A DNA stretch of 26,664 nucleotides, taken from IMG/VR virus record IMGVR_UViG_3300008050_000259, positions 1 to 26,664 of that record; one strand, written 5' to 3'. Shown piece after piece: positions 9,818 through 26,664 of this stretch (its first letter is position 1; each line of letters begins with the position of its first letter). A model generated the notes under the pieces. It was given only the letters and a program-made list of their open reading frames with translations. It was not told the origin of the DNA and made no database searches. The stretch comes from a virus. The translations under genes and the position numbers were made by a program.

Positions 9818-12316
9818 ATGGCTGAATTAGATGATGTAAAGAAAATATCAGAAGCAATAGAAAAACTAGACACTGATATTGATATCTCACGTATCACACA
9901 TAATATCAAGAAATTCAAAAAAGTGCTTGGAGGTTCAGCACTTCATCAAATCAGAGAAAGTATTACATTGGTTGACGATGTTGCTTCAAAGATAAAAATT
10001 TTTAGTGAAGCAGGAGATGGGTTACGAGATTTTTCAAGTTCATTGGAGACTTTCACAAAAATAGATACTAAAACGGTTTCCAGTAAAATAAAGTTATTAT
10101 CAGGAGAAAACAAATCAATAAAAATATTAGCAGAGACAGGAAAAGGGTTTTCAAAGGTTGCTAATTCTCTTTCAACTTTTGAAACTATAAATCCTGAACT
10201 AGTCAAAAATAATATCACGAAGATTTCATCAGTCTCTGATGAAATATTCAGTCTTTCGAGTAGCGTAGATGAACATTTTTCTCATCTCACAAAATCGTTT
10301 GAAACATTCCAAAATTTAGGAGTATTTGGCCCATTAAAGATAAAATATGGTATAAAGGCAATCGCAAAGGTAATACCAGAAATTTCTAAATTGAAAGGCA
10401 ATATTGATGAAGATATAGTACCATTGGCAGAAGCAGTCAAAACCTTTTCGGAAATAGGTTTTGAAGGTAGGCTGAAAATGGGATTTACAATAAAATTTCT
10501 TCAGAAAAAACATAAAGAAATATTATCACTTTCAGAAAACTATAATGAAGATTTAGAACCATTAACCCAGGCAATTGATGTTTTGAGTAAGATAGACCTG
10601 AAGAAAAGAATCGCATTATCAGGAGTATTAGAAAGACTTGCTTCAGGATTTGAAAGAATAAAAAAGGTTGGTATAAAGAAAGGAGACATTGAAAGTATTA
10701 CGTCAGATGTCAATCTTCTTGGTAAGACCGATAAAAATATCAGTATACAAAAAGATATTCCAACAATATCTGAAGTAATAGGTAAGGAAAAATTGGATAG
10801 TTTCATCCCTGAAGGGACTGTTCAACCCAATGCCACTGTTCAACCTGAAGGGACTGTTCAACCTGAAGGGACTGTTCAACCCAATGCCACTGTTCAACCC
10901 AATGCCACTGTTCAACCTGAAGGGACTGTTCAACCTGAAGGGACTGTTCAACCCAATGCCACTGTTCAACCTGAAGGGACTGTTCAACCCAATGCCACTG
11001 TTCAACCTGAAGGGACTGTTCAACCCAAAAATATTAAAACATCAAAGATAACATCAAAGATATTATCTGGTATTAAAACCATTCTCAAAAAGGAAGACAG
11101 ACAAGATGATAGAAAAGATGAACAAACAAGAAATGAAATAAATGCCAACGAAACAAAAATGTCTGATCTTGATATAGATCAGGATGCCCAGACTTCAAAG
11201 ATTGAAATAATAGACAACAAGATAGAATCAATGTTTATAAAGGTTTCCTCTAATAATGATATGCTCAGACAGGTTCTTGGGAAACCAATGGAAAAGAAGA
11301 CTGAAGAAACTCCATCCGAAACAAAAATTGATCAAAAAGAAGATGGGTTGGGTGGTTTATTGAATATGGGATTATTAGCAACCGCTGGGGCAGCAATGTT
11401 TGGCGCTTGGTTAGGAAAAGAATATCCATGGTTAGGTCAGGGATTCAAATATCTCGGAGCATTCAAAGATGAAATTTTCTCAGTGATTAAAAACATTGGA
11501 GGTACTATATGGAAAGGTATCACTAAGGTTGCTTCTAATATACCATTTCTTGGAGATTTTTTCAAGGGCAGTGCTATGAAGGGTGGTAAGGTATTAGCAA
11601 AAGGAGCAGCAAAAGGTGGGGTCAAACCAATGGTGAAAATGTTTGGTAAGATTCTGGGAGGAAAGGCATTTGCTAAAATACCAATTATTGGTCTTGGTGC
11701 TGCTGCCATGTTTGCTTATGATAGATGGATGAGTGGTGATAAATTAGGAGCATTTATAGAAGCAACTTCAGGTATCGCAGCACAGGTTCCAGTGGTAGGT
11801 ACTGGTATTGCTTTGATGCTGGATGCTTTCCTAATGGGGAGAGATGCGGTGAAGGCCAACGAAGCAAGCAAAGCAGAAAGGAAGAAAAAAGGACTTCCAA
11901 TGACAAAAACTCGCATTGATAAAATGTTAGGGATGCCAATAGAAACTGGTAATGAATGGATAGATGATGCTATTGAAGGTGTTTTACCAACGGTTGATGC
12001 TGGGTCTCTCATTTCTAAAGGGTTTGAATATCTTGGTTTTGGATCTCCAGATATAGGAGATGATGCCCAACAAACCAAGACCCCCACATCATCTCCTACA
12101 CCACCTGCGAAAGAAACTCCAAAAGGTGTTGATGAAATAAAACAAGAAACAAATGATATATCAGATGTTACAAGAGAAGCATTGGTATCAAATACAACGA
12201 CTAATAATACAACCACTATTATAAAACCAGAATATGTTGATAGATGGCATAAAGAAATTATACGAGAATCAATCCCACAAGAATCTTCAACTCCAGATTC
12301 ACCAATACACCAATAA
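9818..12316 (+). CDS. Putative tail tape measure protein (gp29-equivalent)
   Basis: This encodes 832 aa behind AAAGG. Residues 1-285 are helical, with about five degenerate repeats of 43-46 residues, each marked by a (S/A)-x3-F/L-x-x-I/L motif such as SLETFTKI. Residues 331-402 are twelve hexapeptides (PEGTVQ or PNATVQ). A charged linker follows, then hydrophobic segments near 510-532, 619-635 and 653-672, and a Pro/Thr-rich tail. Long helices plus hydrophobic stretches in a tail operon fit a tape measure, which sets tail length and may enter the host membrane. Its place between the gp26-like gene and the gp48/54-like gene mirrors T4 gene 29. T4 gp29 is 590 aa, so a longer tail is expected. 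No sequence match to gp29 is visible; the call is from architecture and position. Confidence 0.6.
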   Translation: MAELDDVKKISEAIEKLDTDIDISRITHNIKKFKKVLGGSALHQIRESITLVDDVASKIKIFSEAGDGLRDFSSSLETFTKIDTKTVSSKIKLLSGENKSIKILAETGKGFSKVANSLSTFETINPELVKNNITKISSVSDEIFSLSSSVDEHFSHLTKSFETFQNLGVFGPLKIKYGIKAIAKVIPEISKLKGNIDEDIVPLAEAVKTFSEIGFEGRLKMGFTIKFLQKKHKEILSLSENYNEDLEPLTQAIDVLSKIDLKKRIALSGVLERLASGFERIKKVGIKKGDIESITSDVNLLGKTDKNISIQKDIPTISEVIGKEKLDSFIPEGTVQPNATVQPEGTVQPEGTVQPNATVQPNATVQPEGTVQPEGTVQPNATVQPEGTVQPNATVQPEGTVQPKNIKTSKITSKILSGIKTILKKEDRQDDRKDEQTRNEINANETKMSDLDIDQDAQTSKIEIIDNKIESMFIKVSSNNDMLRQVLGKPMEKKTEETPSETKIDQKEDGLGGLLNMGLLATAGAAMFGAWLGKEYPWLGQGFKYLGAFKDEIFSVIKNIGGTIWKGITKVASNIPFLGDFFKGSAMKGGKVLAKGAAKGGVKPMVKMFGKILGGKAFAKIPIIGLGAAAMFAYDRWMSGDKLGAFIEATSGIAAQVPVVGTGIALMLDAFLMGRDAVKANEASKAERKKKGLPMTKTRIDKMLGMPIETGNEWIDDAIEGVLPTVDAGSLISKGFEYLGFGSPDIGDDAQQTKTPTSSPTPPAKETPKGVDEIKQETNDISDVTREALVSNTTTNNTTTIIKPEYVDRWHKEIIRESIPQESSTPDSPIHQ
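10808..11023 (+). repeat. 18-nt minisatellite, 12 units in two alternating types
   Basis: Twelve head-to-tail 18-base units are present. Type A is CCTGAAGGGACTGTTCAA (PEGTVQ) and type B is CCCAATGCCACTGTTCAA (PNATVQ). Their order is A B A A B B A A B A B A. Copies of each type are identical base for base, with no silent differences, which points to recent expansion or ongoing exchange. Confidence 0.95.
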
Positions 12317-21174: not shown

Positions 21175-21331
21175 TATACCAGATGAATTAAAACCTTTTA
21201 TAGACAGTCTTGATTTATCAAGACTAAAAAGTAATGTTGAGCAAATACAAAAATTACTTGAACTTATGATTACAAAAGATAATAATAAAATGGAAGATTT
21301 AATCAGACATCAAAATGCTAGGAAAAAATGA
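21152..21331 (+). CDS. Small helical protein with TTG start
   Basis: This encodes 59 aa beginning MTQQSTDDIPDELKPF. The TTG start is supported by GGAGG four bases upstream. No ATG or GTG lies between the upstream in-frame TAA (21122) and it, and the only internal ATGs would leave fragments of 21 residues or fewer. It overlaps the previous gene's end by 23 bases and shares ATGA with the next start. The composition is Asp, Glu, Lys, Leu and Ile: a single long helix likely, ending in basic RHQNARKK. Its setting between two large structural genes suggests a small tail component or chaperone. I do not recognise it. Confidence 0.7.
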   Translation: MTQQSTDDIPDELKPFIDSLDLSRLKSNVEQIQKLLELMITKDNNKMEDLIRHQNARKK

Positions 21332-23721
21332 GTTGCGAAGATAGAAAAGTACCATCACCATCAAGTATAGAAACTGGTCTTGAAGATTTAGACAGATTAA
21401 AAATTAGTGATCTAGGGAAAGATATTGATGCTCTCCAGAAACTCATTAATAGTTCCACAACATTTTCATTAGATGATTTAGATGAAAATTCTGGAGGTAA
21501 ACGGGTAGGAGTATCTGATACTTCAGGGACTGGTACGGGAACTTCAGGGACTGGTACGGGAACTTCAGGGACTGGTACGGGAACTTCAGGGACTGGGACA
21601 TCAACAAGTTCTTCAAGCACGTCAGATTCTACTGATGATGTCAATATAAATGATATAATCAATCTTCTTTCAGTAAATCTTGGGTTTGAAGAATGGTTAT
21701 TGTTGAACAAATTAACAGGCGTTACTGATCCAGATGATATTAAAAAACTCAAAGAAGAATTTATAAAAGCAACAAGAGGAAAAGGCAGTAATTCAATAAC
21801 ACTTTCATCTGGAGTTACTTATACTGGAGATGATGGAGAGACAACCACAACATCAAGTACAATAGGTTTAATCACTGGAGATGATGATTCTACTGGCACA
21901 ACATCAACTGATACTAATAATGACGATGTTGTTGATGATGAAGATACCTATGATACTGCTACAGAATCAAAGTATAAAAATAAAACTCTCCCAGTAGAAG
22001 TTCAGAATAAAATGAACGGTATGTGGAAACTTGTGAAATGGGGAATAGACCTCAATCCAGCAATCAAAAGCAATCTTGAAACATTTGCTAAAGGAGCAGC
22101 AAAAGTTCAATTATTGTTAGCATTGGGTATTATTCTTCTTGAATTGTACAAATTTCTAATAGTCTCGTTTGCTGATCCTTTAAAAACTGCTATAATATTT
22201 GTATTAGATCAAGTTATAGATTTCATTAATGGATTGAGAAAAATTGGGGTTTATACTTTTTTCATATATCCAGGAAAATTAAATTCTGTTCCAGAATCTG
22301 AAACCAGTGGATTAGGTTTAGATTTCAATCCTATTGATAATTATTCAGGTGACAGTAAGACTCTTATCTCCTTACGGGAATTAATACCAACAGGTGTAGC
22401 AATTCTTGAAAATCAGATTGATCAACACAAAGAAGAAAAAGCAGCCATTGAAGAAATGATTTCAAAAGGACCAGATGAATATATTAATTATGTTATTCGT
22501 AATGAAGATCAACTGGTAGATAACGCAAAGAAAATCAAGAATCTCTCAGAACTTTCAAAAACAGTTGAAGCAAAAGCAAGAGCGCAACTCAAAATTAAGA
22601 AGATTGATGAAAATATAAAACTGAAAACTAAAGAGTTGGAGAAATTTGATAAGAGTATACCAAAACTATCAGTTAAACAAGCAATTAGTGTTTACCTTAC
22701 CTCATTAAAAAGTAACCATCCTGATGTCCCCCAGTTCAACTCCAATCAAGAGGCTGGAGGTATCGTAATAGTGGCGAGTGCTAAGACAAAAAATATCATT
22801 AATCTAATCACTGCTTTATCAAATCTCACAAGTCTATTTGCTATATTCATGTCAGACCCCAGAGACTTCATGAAGGCATGGAAGACAATGAAAGAAGCAC
22901 TAGATGATATTCAAAATATTGAAGAGGTTAAGAATCCAGATAATAGATCCAAATATGACGATTTATGGGAAAGTGCTAGACTATTTGATTTGTTACCGGA
23001 AATAGAAGCATATCTTTCAGATGATAAAAAAGCAACAAAAACTGTTGGGTTAGATAAATCATTACTTGATCTTGAATTATTATTACGAGGTTTTAAATCA
23101 TCTTTCGAGGATGGATCCCAAAAAGCATTAGACGCAAACATTAAAGTTATAACCCAAAGAGTCAAAAAACTTACAGAAATATCAAAAGCAATAACAGGAG
23201 TAATAAAAGCAATTGAATTAATAAATAACAATAGTAAGGATATTGTTGATATGCGTGGTTTGATTGTCCCTCCACAACCTGGGGGACTTGAGTTGTTACA
23301 GAAAAACTTGAAAGACAAATCATTATTAAACAGACCTGATGAAGAAGAACCATTCTGTATGCTTCTATCATTTGTTGGAGGTGGTCCAGGTATAGCAACT
23401 ATTTACAATTTATTATTTGCTGGGAATGGTAAATCTCCAAAAATGAATGGAGATGTATTCTCAAAAGATTCTGTAAGTGCCATTCGTACATTGGCTGGTT
23501 TAGAGACGGATGGGACTGATAAAAAGACTAGAATGAATAAACATTTTGGTTATGATTCGGATTTAATTGATAAGAAGAAAAGAGAAGCAACAACACAAAT
23601 TACCACTATATTACATATACTATCAGGTAATATGGCTATTGTAGAAAAAGACCCAGAGATGAAAAAATTTGCTACAAATTTATTAAGTAACACTGATACA
23701 GGCAAATCGCTTTATGACTAA
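21328..23721 (+). CDS. Unrecognised 797-aa structural protein with Thr/Ser/Gly linker and hydrophobic segment
   Basis: The ATG sits behind AGGA and overlaps the previous stop. Residues ~65-90 are a low-complexity TSGTGTG linker. Residues 170-215 are Asp/Thr-rich. Residues ~258-303 are strongly hydrophobic (QLLLALGIILLELYKFLIV, then AIIFVLDQVIDFI). Residues ~370-450 are a charged coiled coil. The remainder is helical with a Pro/Gly turn (VPPQPGGL). A hydrophobic segment inside a long helical protein would also suit a tape measure, so it is a second candidate for that role, but the gene at 9818 has better gene order. It lies before the gp14-like neck gene, with 8 bases of overlap. Its role is unknown; virion membership is inferred from context. 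Confidence 0.6.
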   Translation: MSCEDRKVPSPSSIETGLEDLDRLKISDLGKDIDALQKLINSSTTFSLDDLDENSGGKRVGVSDTSGTGTGTSGTGTGTSGTGTGTSGTGTSTSSSSTSDSTDDVNINDIINLLSVNLGFEEWLLLNKLTGVTDPDDIKKLKEEFIKATRGKGSNSITLSSGVTYTGDDGETTTTSSTIGLITGDDDSTGTTSTDTNNDDVVDDEDTYDTATESKYKNKTLPVEVQNKMNGMWKLVKWGIDLNPAIKSNLETFAKGAAKVQLLLALGIILLELYKFLIVSFADPLKTAIIFVLDQVIDFINGLRKIGVYTFFIYPGKLNSVPESETSGLGLDFNPIDNYSGDSKTLISLRELIPTGVAILENQIDQHKEEKAAIEEMISKGPDEYINYVIRNEDQLVDNAKKIKNLSELSKTVEAKARAQLKIKKIDENIKLKTKELEKFDKSIPKLSVKQAISVYLTSLKSNHPDVPQFNSNQEAGGIVIVASAKTKNIINLITALSNLTSLFAIFMSDPRDFMKAWKTMKEALDDIQNIEEVKNPDNRSKYDDLWESARLFDLLPEIEAYLSDDKKATKTVGLDKSLLDLELLLRGFKSSFEDGSQKALDANIKVITQRVKKLTEISKAITGVIKAIELINNNSKDIVDMRGLIVPPQPGGLELLQKNLKDKSLLNRPDEEEPFCMLLSFVGGGPGIATIYNLLFAGNGKSPKMNGDVFSKDSVSAIRTLAGLETDGTDKKTRMNKHFGYDSDLIDKKKREATTQITTILHILSGNMAIVEKDPEMKKFATNLLSNTDTGKSLYD
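21520..21597 (+). repeat. 21-nt tandem repeat encoding TSGTGTG
   Basis: There are three exact copies of a 21-base unit starting ACTTCAGGGACTGGTACGGG (21520-21582) and a partial fourth. The unit encodes a Thr-Ser-Gly linker and is more G-rich than its surroundings. Exact identity suggests recent slippage. Confidence 0.9.
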
Positions 23722-24304
23722 ACCTTTCAGTTTCAACACAGATTATGAAGGTGAAGAATTTGCCACATTCTTAAATATCAGCGATGATGCTATTGCCCTT
23801 CATGGTGAGCAACTTGTATACATTCAACAAACACTCGCACAGTCAGAACCAATCTTTGGAGAATATCTTGGCAAGGTAATCAATGAAGGTGCTGATGTGA
23901 TTCTGTATGTTGAAGAAGCACACACCTTTTCAGATGATATGGCAGGAATGTATAGTAAGTTTGGATTCTCACCTAATCTTGGGGAGGCAACATTCCATGG
24001 TACTATACAATATTTTGATACATTTAATATTGTCCCACATGCTCAAGACCTTATATGGTGGCCAAAGACTAAGAAGATTTATGAAGTTACACACGTCACT
24101 GAGGAGAAAAAACAATATAAATTAACTGCTGAGTTGTATAATTATTCACATGATAAAATTGCTGATGATGTTACAGATACAGAAATAAATAGTCTGACAG
24201 ATATCAACGATGATGAAGTCATTAATTATAACGATGAAATTGAACAAGCAGTTGATGATGATGAAATAATTCCCGACGATGATCTAGGAGATGGTTTATT
24301 CTAA
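23714..24304 (+). CDS. 14: gp14-like neck (head completion) protein
   Basis: This encodes 196 aa against 256 in T4 gp14. Family features are in order: GEQLVYIQQ.LAQSEPIFGE (cf. gp14 [21 protein letters not shown]), then F..MYSKFGFSPNLGEATFHG (cf. FFSNFGMQVQDEVTLSI), then DLIWWPKTKKIYEVTHVTEE (cf. DLIYFPMDNSLFEINWVEP) and YKLTAELYNYSHDKI (cf. KITAGKFIYSGEEI). gp14 joins gp13 under the portal and closes the filled head for tail attachment. The tail is acidic (DDDEIIPDDD). The gene overlaps the previous stop by 8 bases and is followed by a gp15-like gene, keeping the T4 order 14-15; gene 13 is not seen next to it. Confidence 0.8.
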   Translation: MTKPFSFNTDYEGEEFATFLNISDDAIALHGEQLVYIQQTLAQSEPIFGEYLGKVINEGADVILYVEEAHTFSDDMAGMYSKFGFSPNLGEATFHGTIQYFDTFNIVPHAQDLIWWPKTKKIYEVTHVTEEKKQYKLTAELYNYSHDKIADDVTDTEINSLTDINDDEVINYNDEIEQAVDDDEIIPDDDLGDGLF

Positions 24305-25116
24305 TGGCTATTACTACAGCACCCAGTGCCTTTTATGGGCACCAAAACATTACCCGTAAAGTATTACTTGGTTTTTTAGATTTTTTAAATGGTAGAATAT
24401 TTGTTGAACGATTTGATGATACTGGAGCAATCTATAGATATATAAAAGTCCCATTACATTCATCCTCAAGAGAGAGATTTTTCCACATAGTAAAATCAAG
24501 TACAGTGGTTAATAATTCAACATCAAATGAAATTGAGTTGAATAATATCCTTCCAAGAATTGCTGTCAACATATCAGGAATGACTTATGATAGCACAAGG
24601 AAAGTACCAAAACATAATAAGATAAAAGGAAGCGCAGGCGTAGTTGGGGATGGAAGTGTTCGTTCAGTTATGGCACCAGTCCCTTATAAATTAGACCTTG
24701 AACTTTCAATCCTCACAAAAACTATAGATGATAACTTCCAAATTATTGAACAAATCGTTCCCTATTTTGCGCCAAGTTTCTCTATGGATATCCAATTATT
24801 AAGTGACTTTGACCCTCTGAGTGTCCAATATACATTGATTTCAGTAACACCAGATAGTACGGATGAATATGCTATAACAGATGAACGATTGTTTCTTTCA
24901 ACGATGTCATTCACTGTGAATGTGATGTATTATTATAACAGGGCCAGCGTTGGTACTATAAAGGAAATGATCGCAAATTTTCATATTGGAAAGGAAGGTT
25001 CAGAAGACTACAAGAAAATCAAAAAATATGAATTGGTAGCACAAAACATATCACCCATCACATCTATAGAGAATAGAGGAGATGAGCCAATGACATTATC
25101 ACAAACGGAGTATTAG
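24304..25116 (+). CDS. 15: gp15-like tail terminator (sheath stabiliser)
   Basis: This encodes 270 aa against 272 in T4 gp15. The ATG overlaps the gp14-like stop. Aligning features are FYGHQNITRKVLLGFLDFLNGRIFVER at the start (cf. FYNSSFRRYATLMGDLFSNIQIKR), a IKVPLHSSSRERFF turn (cf. IRVPITYASKEHFM), ILPRIAVNISGMTYD (cf. ILPRINLHLVDFSYN), PYKLDLELSILTKTIDDNFQIIEQIVPYF (cf. PIKMIYELSIFTRYEDDMFQIVEQILPYF), and a C-terminal LSTMSFTVNVMYYYN. The match is strong. gp15 forms a hexameric ring that ends the tube and sheath and binds the neck. Confidence 0.88.
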   Translation: MAITTAPSAFYGHQNITRKVLLGFLDFLNGRIFVERFDDTGAIYRYIKVPLHSSSRERFFHIVKSSTVVNNSTSNEIELNNILPRIAVNISGMTYDSTRKVPKHNKIKGSAGVVGDGSVRSVMAPVPYKLDLELSILTKTIDDNFQIIEQIVPYFAPSFSMDIQLLSDFDPLSVQYTLISVTPDSTDEYAITDERLFLSTMSFTVNVMYYYNRASVGTIKEMIANFHIGKEGSEDYKKIKKYELVAQNISPITSIENRGDEPMTLSQTEY

Positions 25117-25569: not shown

Positions 25570-25773
25570 ATGAACAATTTCAAAAAAATGATTAGAGAAG
25601 CATATTCAAAAGAATTAGATGATGCTTCAATGGAATTAGAAAGAGCATTCAATAAATATACCGAAATCATAAAAGATGAATTTGTTGACACAAAGGATGG
25701 TAAAAAGAAAGTTCTTAGTATTTCAAAATTCAGAAAAACATTATATTCTTTCATGAAGGAGAATAAATTTTGA
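25570..25773 (+). CDS. Small putative internal head protein with capsid-targeting leader (NNF type)
   Basis: This encodes 67 aa behind GAGGAAATAAT. The N-terminus MNNFKKMIRE places F at 4, hydrophobic residues at 7-8 and E at 10. This is the same spacing as the T4 capsid targeting sequence MKTYQEFIAE, after whose Glu the gp21 protease cuts ((I/L)-x-E). Here I-R-E is at 8-10. The mature part would be 57 residues, helical and mixed charge, ending SFMKENKF. It could be an injected internal protein or a scaffold-core component. The leader nearly repeats at 26543. The stop overlaps the next gene's TTG start. Confidence 0.65.
   Translation: MNNFKKMIREAYSKELDDASMELERAFNKYTEIIKDEFVDTKDGKKKVLSISKFRKTLYSFMKENKF
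25756..25772 (+). promoter_or_regulatory. Ribosome site supporting the TTG start at 25770
   Basis: AAGGAGA (25756-25762) lies seven bases before TTG (25770-25772). The encoded leader equals that of the ATG-started gene at 26236, which confirms this start. Confidence 0.8.
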
Positions 25774-26225
25774 AATCATTCAAGGAACTGCTTGCTGAAG
25801 AGATTTTACTCGAACTATTTGATAAACCACTTCCATTCTCTTGGGAAGAAATAACACCAAATTCTTGGTATGCTAGTTTCAAAATTGATAAACAGCATTA
25901 TGGAGTTGATATTTATATAACGAATGATTCTCCAGACCCTGATATTGAACAGGGTTGGGAGATTGTTTTTGGTGTAGGGAAAGATAGAATGGGTTTAGAT
26001 ATTGGTATTCTCAATACTGGTAATGAAATTAAAGTGTTTTCCACCGTCGTGGCAGCAATTAAAGAATGGTACAAATTAAATAAAAACCATCCGTTTTGGT
26101 TTTCTGCTAAAGAACCAAGTAGGGTAAAATTATACAAAGCATTCGCCAGATTAATAAAAAAGGAAATTGGAAGAAGTCATAAATTAATTAAGAAGAAAGA
26201 GACATATTTTGTATTTAACACATAG
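25770..26225 (+). CDS. Putative internal head protein with capsid-targeting leader (KSF type)
   Basis: This encodes 151 aa from a TTG overlapping the previous TGA. The first ten residues, MKSFKELLAE, line up with the T4 leader MKTYQEFIAE, and L-A-E at 8-10 fits the prohead protease rule, so cleavage after E10 would leave ~141 residues. The body is a compact alpha/beta protein: PFSWEEI....WYASF, GVDIYITNDSP, GWEIVFGVG, VFSTVVAAIKEWYK, then HPFWFSAKEPSRVKLYKAFARLIKK and YFVFNT. I recall this SAKE..SR..LY end from small proteins of other large myoviruses, function unknown. It may be packaged and injected to act on the host early. The first 31 bases after the first T are repeated exactly at 26237. 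Confidence 0.65.
   Translation: MKSFKELLAEEILLELFDKPLPFSWEEITPNSWYASFKIDKQHYGVDIYITNDSPDPDIEQGWEIVFGVGKDRMGLDIGILNTGNEIKVFSTVVAAIKEWYKLNKNHPFWFSAKEPSRVKLYKAFARLIKKEIGRSHKLIKKKETYFVFNT
25771..25801 (+). repeat. 31-bp exact direct repeat, copy 1 (leader sequence)
   Basis: The bases are identical to 26237-26267 and cover codons 1-10 of both KSF-type leaders. The sequences after the repeat are unrelated. Confidence 0.95.
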
Positions 26226-26235
26226 AGGAAAATTT

Positions 26236-26472
26236 ATGAAATCATTCAAGGAACTGCTTGCTGAAGATATAGAACCACCCATCAAGAGAACAGAAAAACG
26301 AGTATGTGAGATGTGTTCAAAAGATATAGTTCATAATGTTGATAAACACAAACACACAAAAAAGGCAATGAAGAATAATGGAAAAGCCATTCTTATAGAT
26401 GGTAAAACCTATTGTCTTGAATGCCTTGCTGGAACGATCAAGAGAAATAAAGTAAAAAATATTGATATTTAA
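26236..26472 (+). CDS. Small zinc-ribbon protein with capsid-targeting leader (KSF type)
   Basis: This encodes 78 aa from the ATG at 26236 (GAGGAAAATTT upstream); the open frame extends back to 26209, but this ATG has the ribosome site and the shared leader. Residues 1-10 are MKSFKELLAE, as in the previous gene, with predicted prohead-protease cleavage after E10. The mature part has C24-x2-C27 and C60-x2-C63 with a His/Lys-rich loop (H33, H38, H40) between, giving a likely four-Cys zinc site, and a basic end (KRNKVKN). Such a small basic zinc protein could bind nucleic acid or a host factor after injection; that is inference. Alternatively it is a cytoplasmic protein and the leader match is an accident, which the exact DNA repeat makes unlikely. 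Confidence 0.7.
   Translation: MKSFKELLAEDIEPPIKRTEKRVCEMCSKDIVHNVDKHKHTKKAMKNNGKAILIDGKTYCLECLAGTIKRNKVKNIDI
26237..26267 (+). repeat. 31-bp exact direct repeat, copy 2 (leader sequence)
   Basis: This is the second copy of 25771-25801, coding the same ten-residue leader. Confidence 0.95.
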
Positions 26473-26510
26473 CACATTTTACTTGACATATAATATTTAT
26501 TATGCTCTAC

Positions 26511-26518
26511 TATAAATA
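26511..26518 (+). promoter_or_regulatory. T4-type late promoter core TATAAATA
   Basis: This is an exact match to the T4 late consensus in the only intergenic gap after 9817 longer than a few bases (26473-26542), 24 bases before the ATG at 26543. Transcription would start a few bases downstream. T4 late promoters need the gp55 sigma and no -35 box. The octamer also occurs by chance in coding DNA (939, 16201), so position is the main support. Confidence 0.55.
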
Positions 26519-26542
26519 TAACAACACACAAGAGCAAATATT

Positions 26543-26664
26543 ATGAACAATTTTAATAGAATGATTAAAGAAGACATAAACGAGAGTTTTTCATCCTCTA
26601 TCAGTTCTTGGGTTAATAAGATAAAAGAACCAATAGTCAAAAGGAATTTGGTAAAAATGTATGC
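26543..26664 (+). CDS. Start of a further leader-bearing putative internal protein (partial)
   Basis: Only the first 40 residues are in the window. The leader MNNFNRMIKE closely repeats MNNFKKMIRE of the gene at 25570, in DNA as well as protein, again with E at position 10 and I-K-E fitting the prohead protease site. The sequence then runs Ser-rich (SFSSSISSW) into a basic helix (NKIKEPIVKRNLVKMY). It has its own late-type promoter upstream. The upstream bases AAGAGCAAATATT give only a weak ribosome site. Confidence 0.65.
   Translation, partial: MNNFNRMIKEDINESFSSSISSWVNKIKEPIVKRNLVKMY

Follow-up and report, generated by a model that had tools for sequence, protein, structure and literature searches.

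The locus analyzed here raises the question whether a run of small phage genes, the products of which resemble each other only in their first ten residues, encodes proteins addressed to the virus head. The source is a stretch of 26,664 nt (IMG/VR record IMGVR_UViG_3300008050_000259; hereafter, the window) that represents a fragment of the genome of an uncultured T4-like phage.

The four genes and their neighborhood

Four consecutive ORFs, located at positions 25570-26664, start with MNNFKKMIRE, MKSFKELLAE, MKSFKELLAE and MNNFNRMIKE, respectively. The shared start noted in the preliminary description was confirmed, with Glu as residue 10 in all four. The relevant features are the following (the arrow marks a cleavage-type site).

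23714..24304, + strand: gp14-like neck protein (head closure Hc2); PHROG E-value 7.7e-16, Pfam slightly under its cut-off
24304..25116, + strand: gp15 (tail sheath stabiliser); Pfam E-value 3.7e-48, PHROG tail sheath stabilizer
25570..25773, + strand: gene 1, 67 aa, ATG start, AGGA upstream; MNNFKKMIRE and a short, probably helical body
25770..26225, + strand: gene 2, 151 aa, TTG start, AGGAG; MKSFKELLAE, a second site LLE↓LFDKP at residue 15, then a stand-alone domain
25771..25801, + strand: 31-base leader DNA repeat in gene 2, identical to 26237-26267 in gene 3
26236..26472, + strand: gene 3, 78 aa, ATG start, AGGA; MKSFKELLAE and a CxxC...CxxC zinc-ribbon-like body
26511..26518, + strand: T4-type late-promoter core TATAAATA, 24 bases 5' of the gene 4 start
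26543..26664, + strand: gene 4, at least 40 aa, ATG start, cut by the window end; MNNFNRMIKE

The T4 order of neck and tail genes, gp14-like followed by gp15, is kept in the window, and the position of gp15 places the leader genes in a T4-type structural operon, with a 144-aa protein encoded between gp15 and the four genes. The cluster reaches the end of the window. No head genes, gp21 included, were detected in the 26.7-kb window, which is a fragment, and no nucleotide relatives of the window were found among named phages. Two large window proteins contain low-complexity repeats (9818-12316, NATVQPEGTVQP; 21328-23721, GTGTSGTGTGTSG).

The start of gene 2 overlaps the stop of gene 1; for gene 3, the start was taken at the ATG instead of the upstream TTG in the program-made ORF list. 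No relative of gene 1 was found among named phages, and a search for relatives of gene 3, the single-sequence structure model of which is of low confidence, retrieved none. The characterization of the gene 3 and gene 2 bodies as a zinc ribbon and an alpha/beta protein, respectively, is fair, and the bodies indeed appear unrelated, given that the identity ends at the leader and that no BLASTP match was found among them. The late-promoter octamer shows no enrichment in the window (6 occurrences vs 4.6 expected) and TATAAATA precedes gene 4 only, so that its presence there lends weak support; a scan for sigma-70 promoters yielded background level only.

For the narrow leader pattern, M..[FY]..[FLMIY][LI].E, the probability calculated from the window's own composition is about 2e-4 per start, and the pattern is found at none of the 133 Met residues in the other tested proteins of the window, which implies that the run of four is not due to chance. 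The leaders are related at the DNA level as well. The 31-base identity between genes 2 and 3 stops right past the leader, which supports the TTG start of gene 2 and suggests that the leader alone was recently duplicated or converted, and the leader DNAs of genes 1 and 4 are identical at 26 of 30 bases. Thus, the leaders form two DNA-related pairs and should be counted as about two independent cases rather than four. The two pairs differ in sequence, yet both keep positions 4, 7, 8 and 10.

The leader in T4 and in other viral contigs

In the T4 internal protein IPIII, the first ten residues are sufficient for import into the head, with targeting controlled by positions 4 and 7 and processing by positions 8 and 10 (PMC9026906). 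The prohead protease gp21 recognizes the motif L/I-X-E and cuts after the Glu; such sites are cleaved in core proteins and in gp21 itself as well. All four leaders fit the T4 sequence at both the targeting and the cleavage positions and contain L/I-X-E. The annotated T4-like internal protein Ip7 of Enterobacter phage EnA02 starts with MKTYQEFINE, and Pectobacterium phage PM2 encodes a MKTFKEFLAE leader in a contig that also carries a gp21-type (S77) protease.

Viral contigs were searched with a degenerate DNA pattern and then with a second pattern that recovered more loci. The degenerate pattern retrieved MKTFKE(F/L)(L/F)AE on many unrelated bodies. Across 49 loci, leader starts are present in 43 of 519 non-seed genes vs 7 of 2152 internal Met residues, an approximately 25-fold enrichment, for which the p-value of 1.5e-24 is too optimistic because overlapping loci were counted. 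The 76 distinct leader proteins fall into about 62 unrelated body families, and 69 of the 76 have Glu10. Pfam matches among the bodies include DUF6267, DnaJ, ADP-ribosyltransferase exoenzyme, GNAT, Zeta toxin and cytidylyltransferase, among others. Some of the families resemble ordinary enzymes (glycosyltransferase, cytidylyltransferase, endolysin-like); packaging is less expected for these, which counts against the interpretation of the leader genes as a cassette of packaged proteins.

The closest relative of the window, locus L003 (gp15 42% identical), shows a series of leader-like starts around gp15 and downstream to gp17, including MKTFKQFLKE (a DnaJ-like protein), MILTFKQFLVE (a protein with an HEFIH motif) and MILTFKQYLNE. 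None of these proteins is related to the four bodies of the window, and the number and identity of leader genes differ between relatives. The terminase gene gp17 in this locus (L003:16336-20071) is split: the first part has an intein-like N-part at its end and is followed by an endonuclease-like ORF, and the next ORF opens with an intein-like C-part (ending HNS) that precedes the remainder of gp17. This arrangement has the appearance of a fractured gene bearing a split intein.

Several contigs link the leader to an S77 protease. In contig G017, three leader genes are located between the portal and protease genes, and the gene right after the protease also bears a leader; one of these G017 proteins has a further leader within its chain. 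Three other contigs (G030, G048 and G053) each contain S77 and leader genes, and S77 matches and leader genes are also present in the complete genomes of Desulfovibrio phage 7757, in which the S77 match consists of two pieces of a single 583-aa frame, and Melnitz. In another locus (L029), a leader protein of 82 aa, which is very basic, is encoded next to the S77 gene. An LTE site is kept in the N-terminal region of gp23 from both G048 and cyanophage S-SM1. For the closest relative, G001, there is no S77 match; gp23 is missing there too, so this absence is uninformative. Among other arrangements, G053 starts with five contiguous leader genes (L140:398-3180), two of which are tandem genes of the gene 2 type, in a contig that contains S77, and a 444-aa leader protein (L068:15084-16418) contains a second, internal leader (MKSFKEFVSEGKE), resembling two fused cargo proteins.

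Evidence from virions is available for two other phages. In purified S-SM1 virions, 41 proteins were detected, with the cytidylyltransferase cluster T4-GC190 named among them (Sullivan et al., PMC3037559). In the S-SM1 record, SSM1_190 is listed under this cluster; the protein begins with MKKFSAFLNE↓AER, and no other of the 225 S-SM1 ORFs matches the leader. This is a single case rather than a statistical test, given that about a sixth of the S-SM1 proteins were detected. In phage PA5oct, virion proteins homologous to gene 2 and to the leader family L023 were detected by mass spectrometry; the canonical leader is absent from these homologues, which therefore support the families as virion proteins and not the leader. 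The L023 homologue (EST35_0202, L149:6001-6603), detected by ESI-MS/MS, starts with MKSFRDYYDASK and lacks the Glu10 site.

Gene 2 and the N-terminal domain of T4 Alt

A search with gene 2 alone retrieved nothing from the viral contigs; with an alignment as the query, 24 loci were identified. The family is represented in T4-like as well as jumbo phages, some members with the leader and some without it. Most members have an (L/I)xE start, continued by a hydrophobic residue and then FD, corresponding to LLE↓LFDKP in gene 2, and in two G053 members (MISFKQYVVELFEKP and MISFKQYITELFDNP) and one in L100 (MKSFKEYITEVFDNP), the leader is joined directly to this site. T4 Alt begins with MELITELFDE, and a GenBank record notes that six residues are removed, that is, MELITE↓LFDE.

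The AlphaFold model of gene 2 (mean pLDDT 85.7) matches viral models including Alt-type ADP-ribosyltransferases, with E-values of 0.0026-0.012. Comparison of the gene 2 family profile with that of the Alt N-domain yielded a score of 25.9 (maximum of 18.1 in 60 column shuffles) and, when aligned end to end, 22.9 vs 11.4 in the shuffles; the hhalign probability is just 14-20%, indicative of a distant link. No match to an ADP-ribosyltransferase domain was found in gene 2, and the 151-aa protein stops after the N-domain. Judged by sequence profiles and a predicted structure, gene 2 probably encodes, behind its leader, a free-standing domain that is remotely related to the T4 Alt N-terminal domain. 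The matches among PDB folds consist largely of GNAT enzymes and RNase E, with Z-scores up to 8.3, which the search tool rates as middling; we make no claim of enzymatic activity for gene 2.

In T4, alt.-1 and alt.-2 are duplications of the first part of alt, and Alt itself is injected into the host. In L089, L090 and L091, an ORF of 1814 aa opens with repeated gene-2-type domains, each beginning with an (L/I)xELF(D/N)KP site, an organization like that of a polyprotein consisting of Alt-N-like modules.

A cassette of putative internal proteins

The proposal that the shared start is a leader of the T4 capsid-targeting and gp21-cleavage type is supported by its agreement with positions defined by mutagenesis, its recurrence on unrelated bodies, the location of leader genes next to a gp21-type protease, the leaders in S77 contigs, the report of one leader family from virions, and the resemblance of gene 2 to the N-domain of T4 Alt. 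We consider it likely that the four genes form a cassette in a T4-like virus, and that their products are internal proteins packaged into the head by means of a capsid-targeting sequence. Judging by their predicted sequences, the four proteins are likely packaged and cleaved. During prohead assembly, leader residues 4 and 7 would dock each protein in the scaffold core; a gp21-type protease would then cut after (L/I)xE at residue 10, freeing the body inside the head alongside the DNA; ejection of the body into the host would follow. On this reading, bodies are exchanged behind the conserved leader, and the 31-base repeat of genes 2 and 3 is a trace of such exchange. From the analogy with the T4 proteins, we infer that the four proteins are injected; Ip1-3, which block GmrSD enzymes, suggest an anti-defence role for cassette proteins, and Alt suggests one in host takeover.

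It is less plausible, in our estimate improbable, that the leader serves for the docking or assembly of scaffold, core or minor structural components of the head, which would be cleaved and retained rather than injected. The cleavage of gp21 and core proteins at the same motif fits such a role, as do the very basic protein encoded next to S77 and the placement of one leader family in a PHROG annotated as virion structural protein; the great diversity of the bodies, enzyme families among them, argues against it, and the variable number and identity of leader genes among relatives fit accessory cargo better than core parts. We dropped, as very improbable, the reading that the shared start reflects chance or mere recent duplication of look-alike amphipathic N-terminal helices with no packaging role: the origin of leaders 2/3 and 1/4 as DNA paralogues does mean that a count of four overstates the evidence, yet the key positions are retained in two pairs that are unlike in DNA and residues, and the internal-Met controls oppose this reading, with a fixed Glu10 found on many contigs and dozens of body families.

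Beyond the cassette, we lean, by a modest degree, towards the view that the F4/E10 leader serves aquatic T4-like viruses in general (Kyanoviridae, the Desulfovibrio phage and others) as a portable tag for import into the capsid, is found on dozens of unrelated families (ADP-ribosyltransferases, acetyltransferases, Zeta-toxin-type kinases, DnaJ, possible metallopeptidases) and reveals an undescribed delivered proteome, with stand-alone Alt-N-like domains and their own LxE↓LFD site as a second, parallel tag. The suggestion that such proteins had not been described before is only partly right, since T-even phages are already known to have internal proteins that carry a common tag on exchangeable bodies. 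The wide occurrence of the tag beyond T-even phages, the most interesting part, exceeds the descriptions in the open papers that we searched, which treat T-even relatives. Phage proteins that enter the cell together with the DNA are the first to act and are able to disarm host defences; few are known outside T-even phages, and their sequences give no clue. If the leader does predict packaging, it would be a search signal for listing delivered phage proteins from metagenomes. This prediction can be tested directly against virion proteomes, given the S-SM1 virion report and the leader genes that flank the protease.

Among known systems, the closest parallel is provided by T4 IPI, IPII and IPIII and the T-even Ip proteins, which likewise have a ten-residue leader with an aromatic residue at position 4, a hydrophobic one at 7, L/I at 8 and Glu10, and are small accessory genes with unrelated bodies behind a common leader. 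Unlike in that system, the bodies here are unrelated to the Ip sequences seen, one of them is Alt-N-like, the genes follow gp15 in the tail/neck operon, and packaging is predicted. SSM1_190 of S-SM1 shares with the window genes the leader start, in a genome that has gp21, and its cluster is reported from purified virions; it differs in its unrelated body, its genome position and its status as a cyanophage core gene. T4 Alt shares with gene 2 the (L/I)xE↓LFD cleavage site and, probably, a distantly related N-terminal domain, whereas gene 2 lacks the ADP-ribosyltransferase domain and carries the additional ten-residue leader in front.
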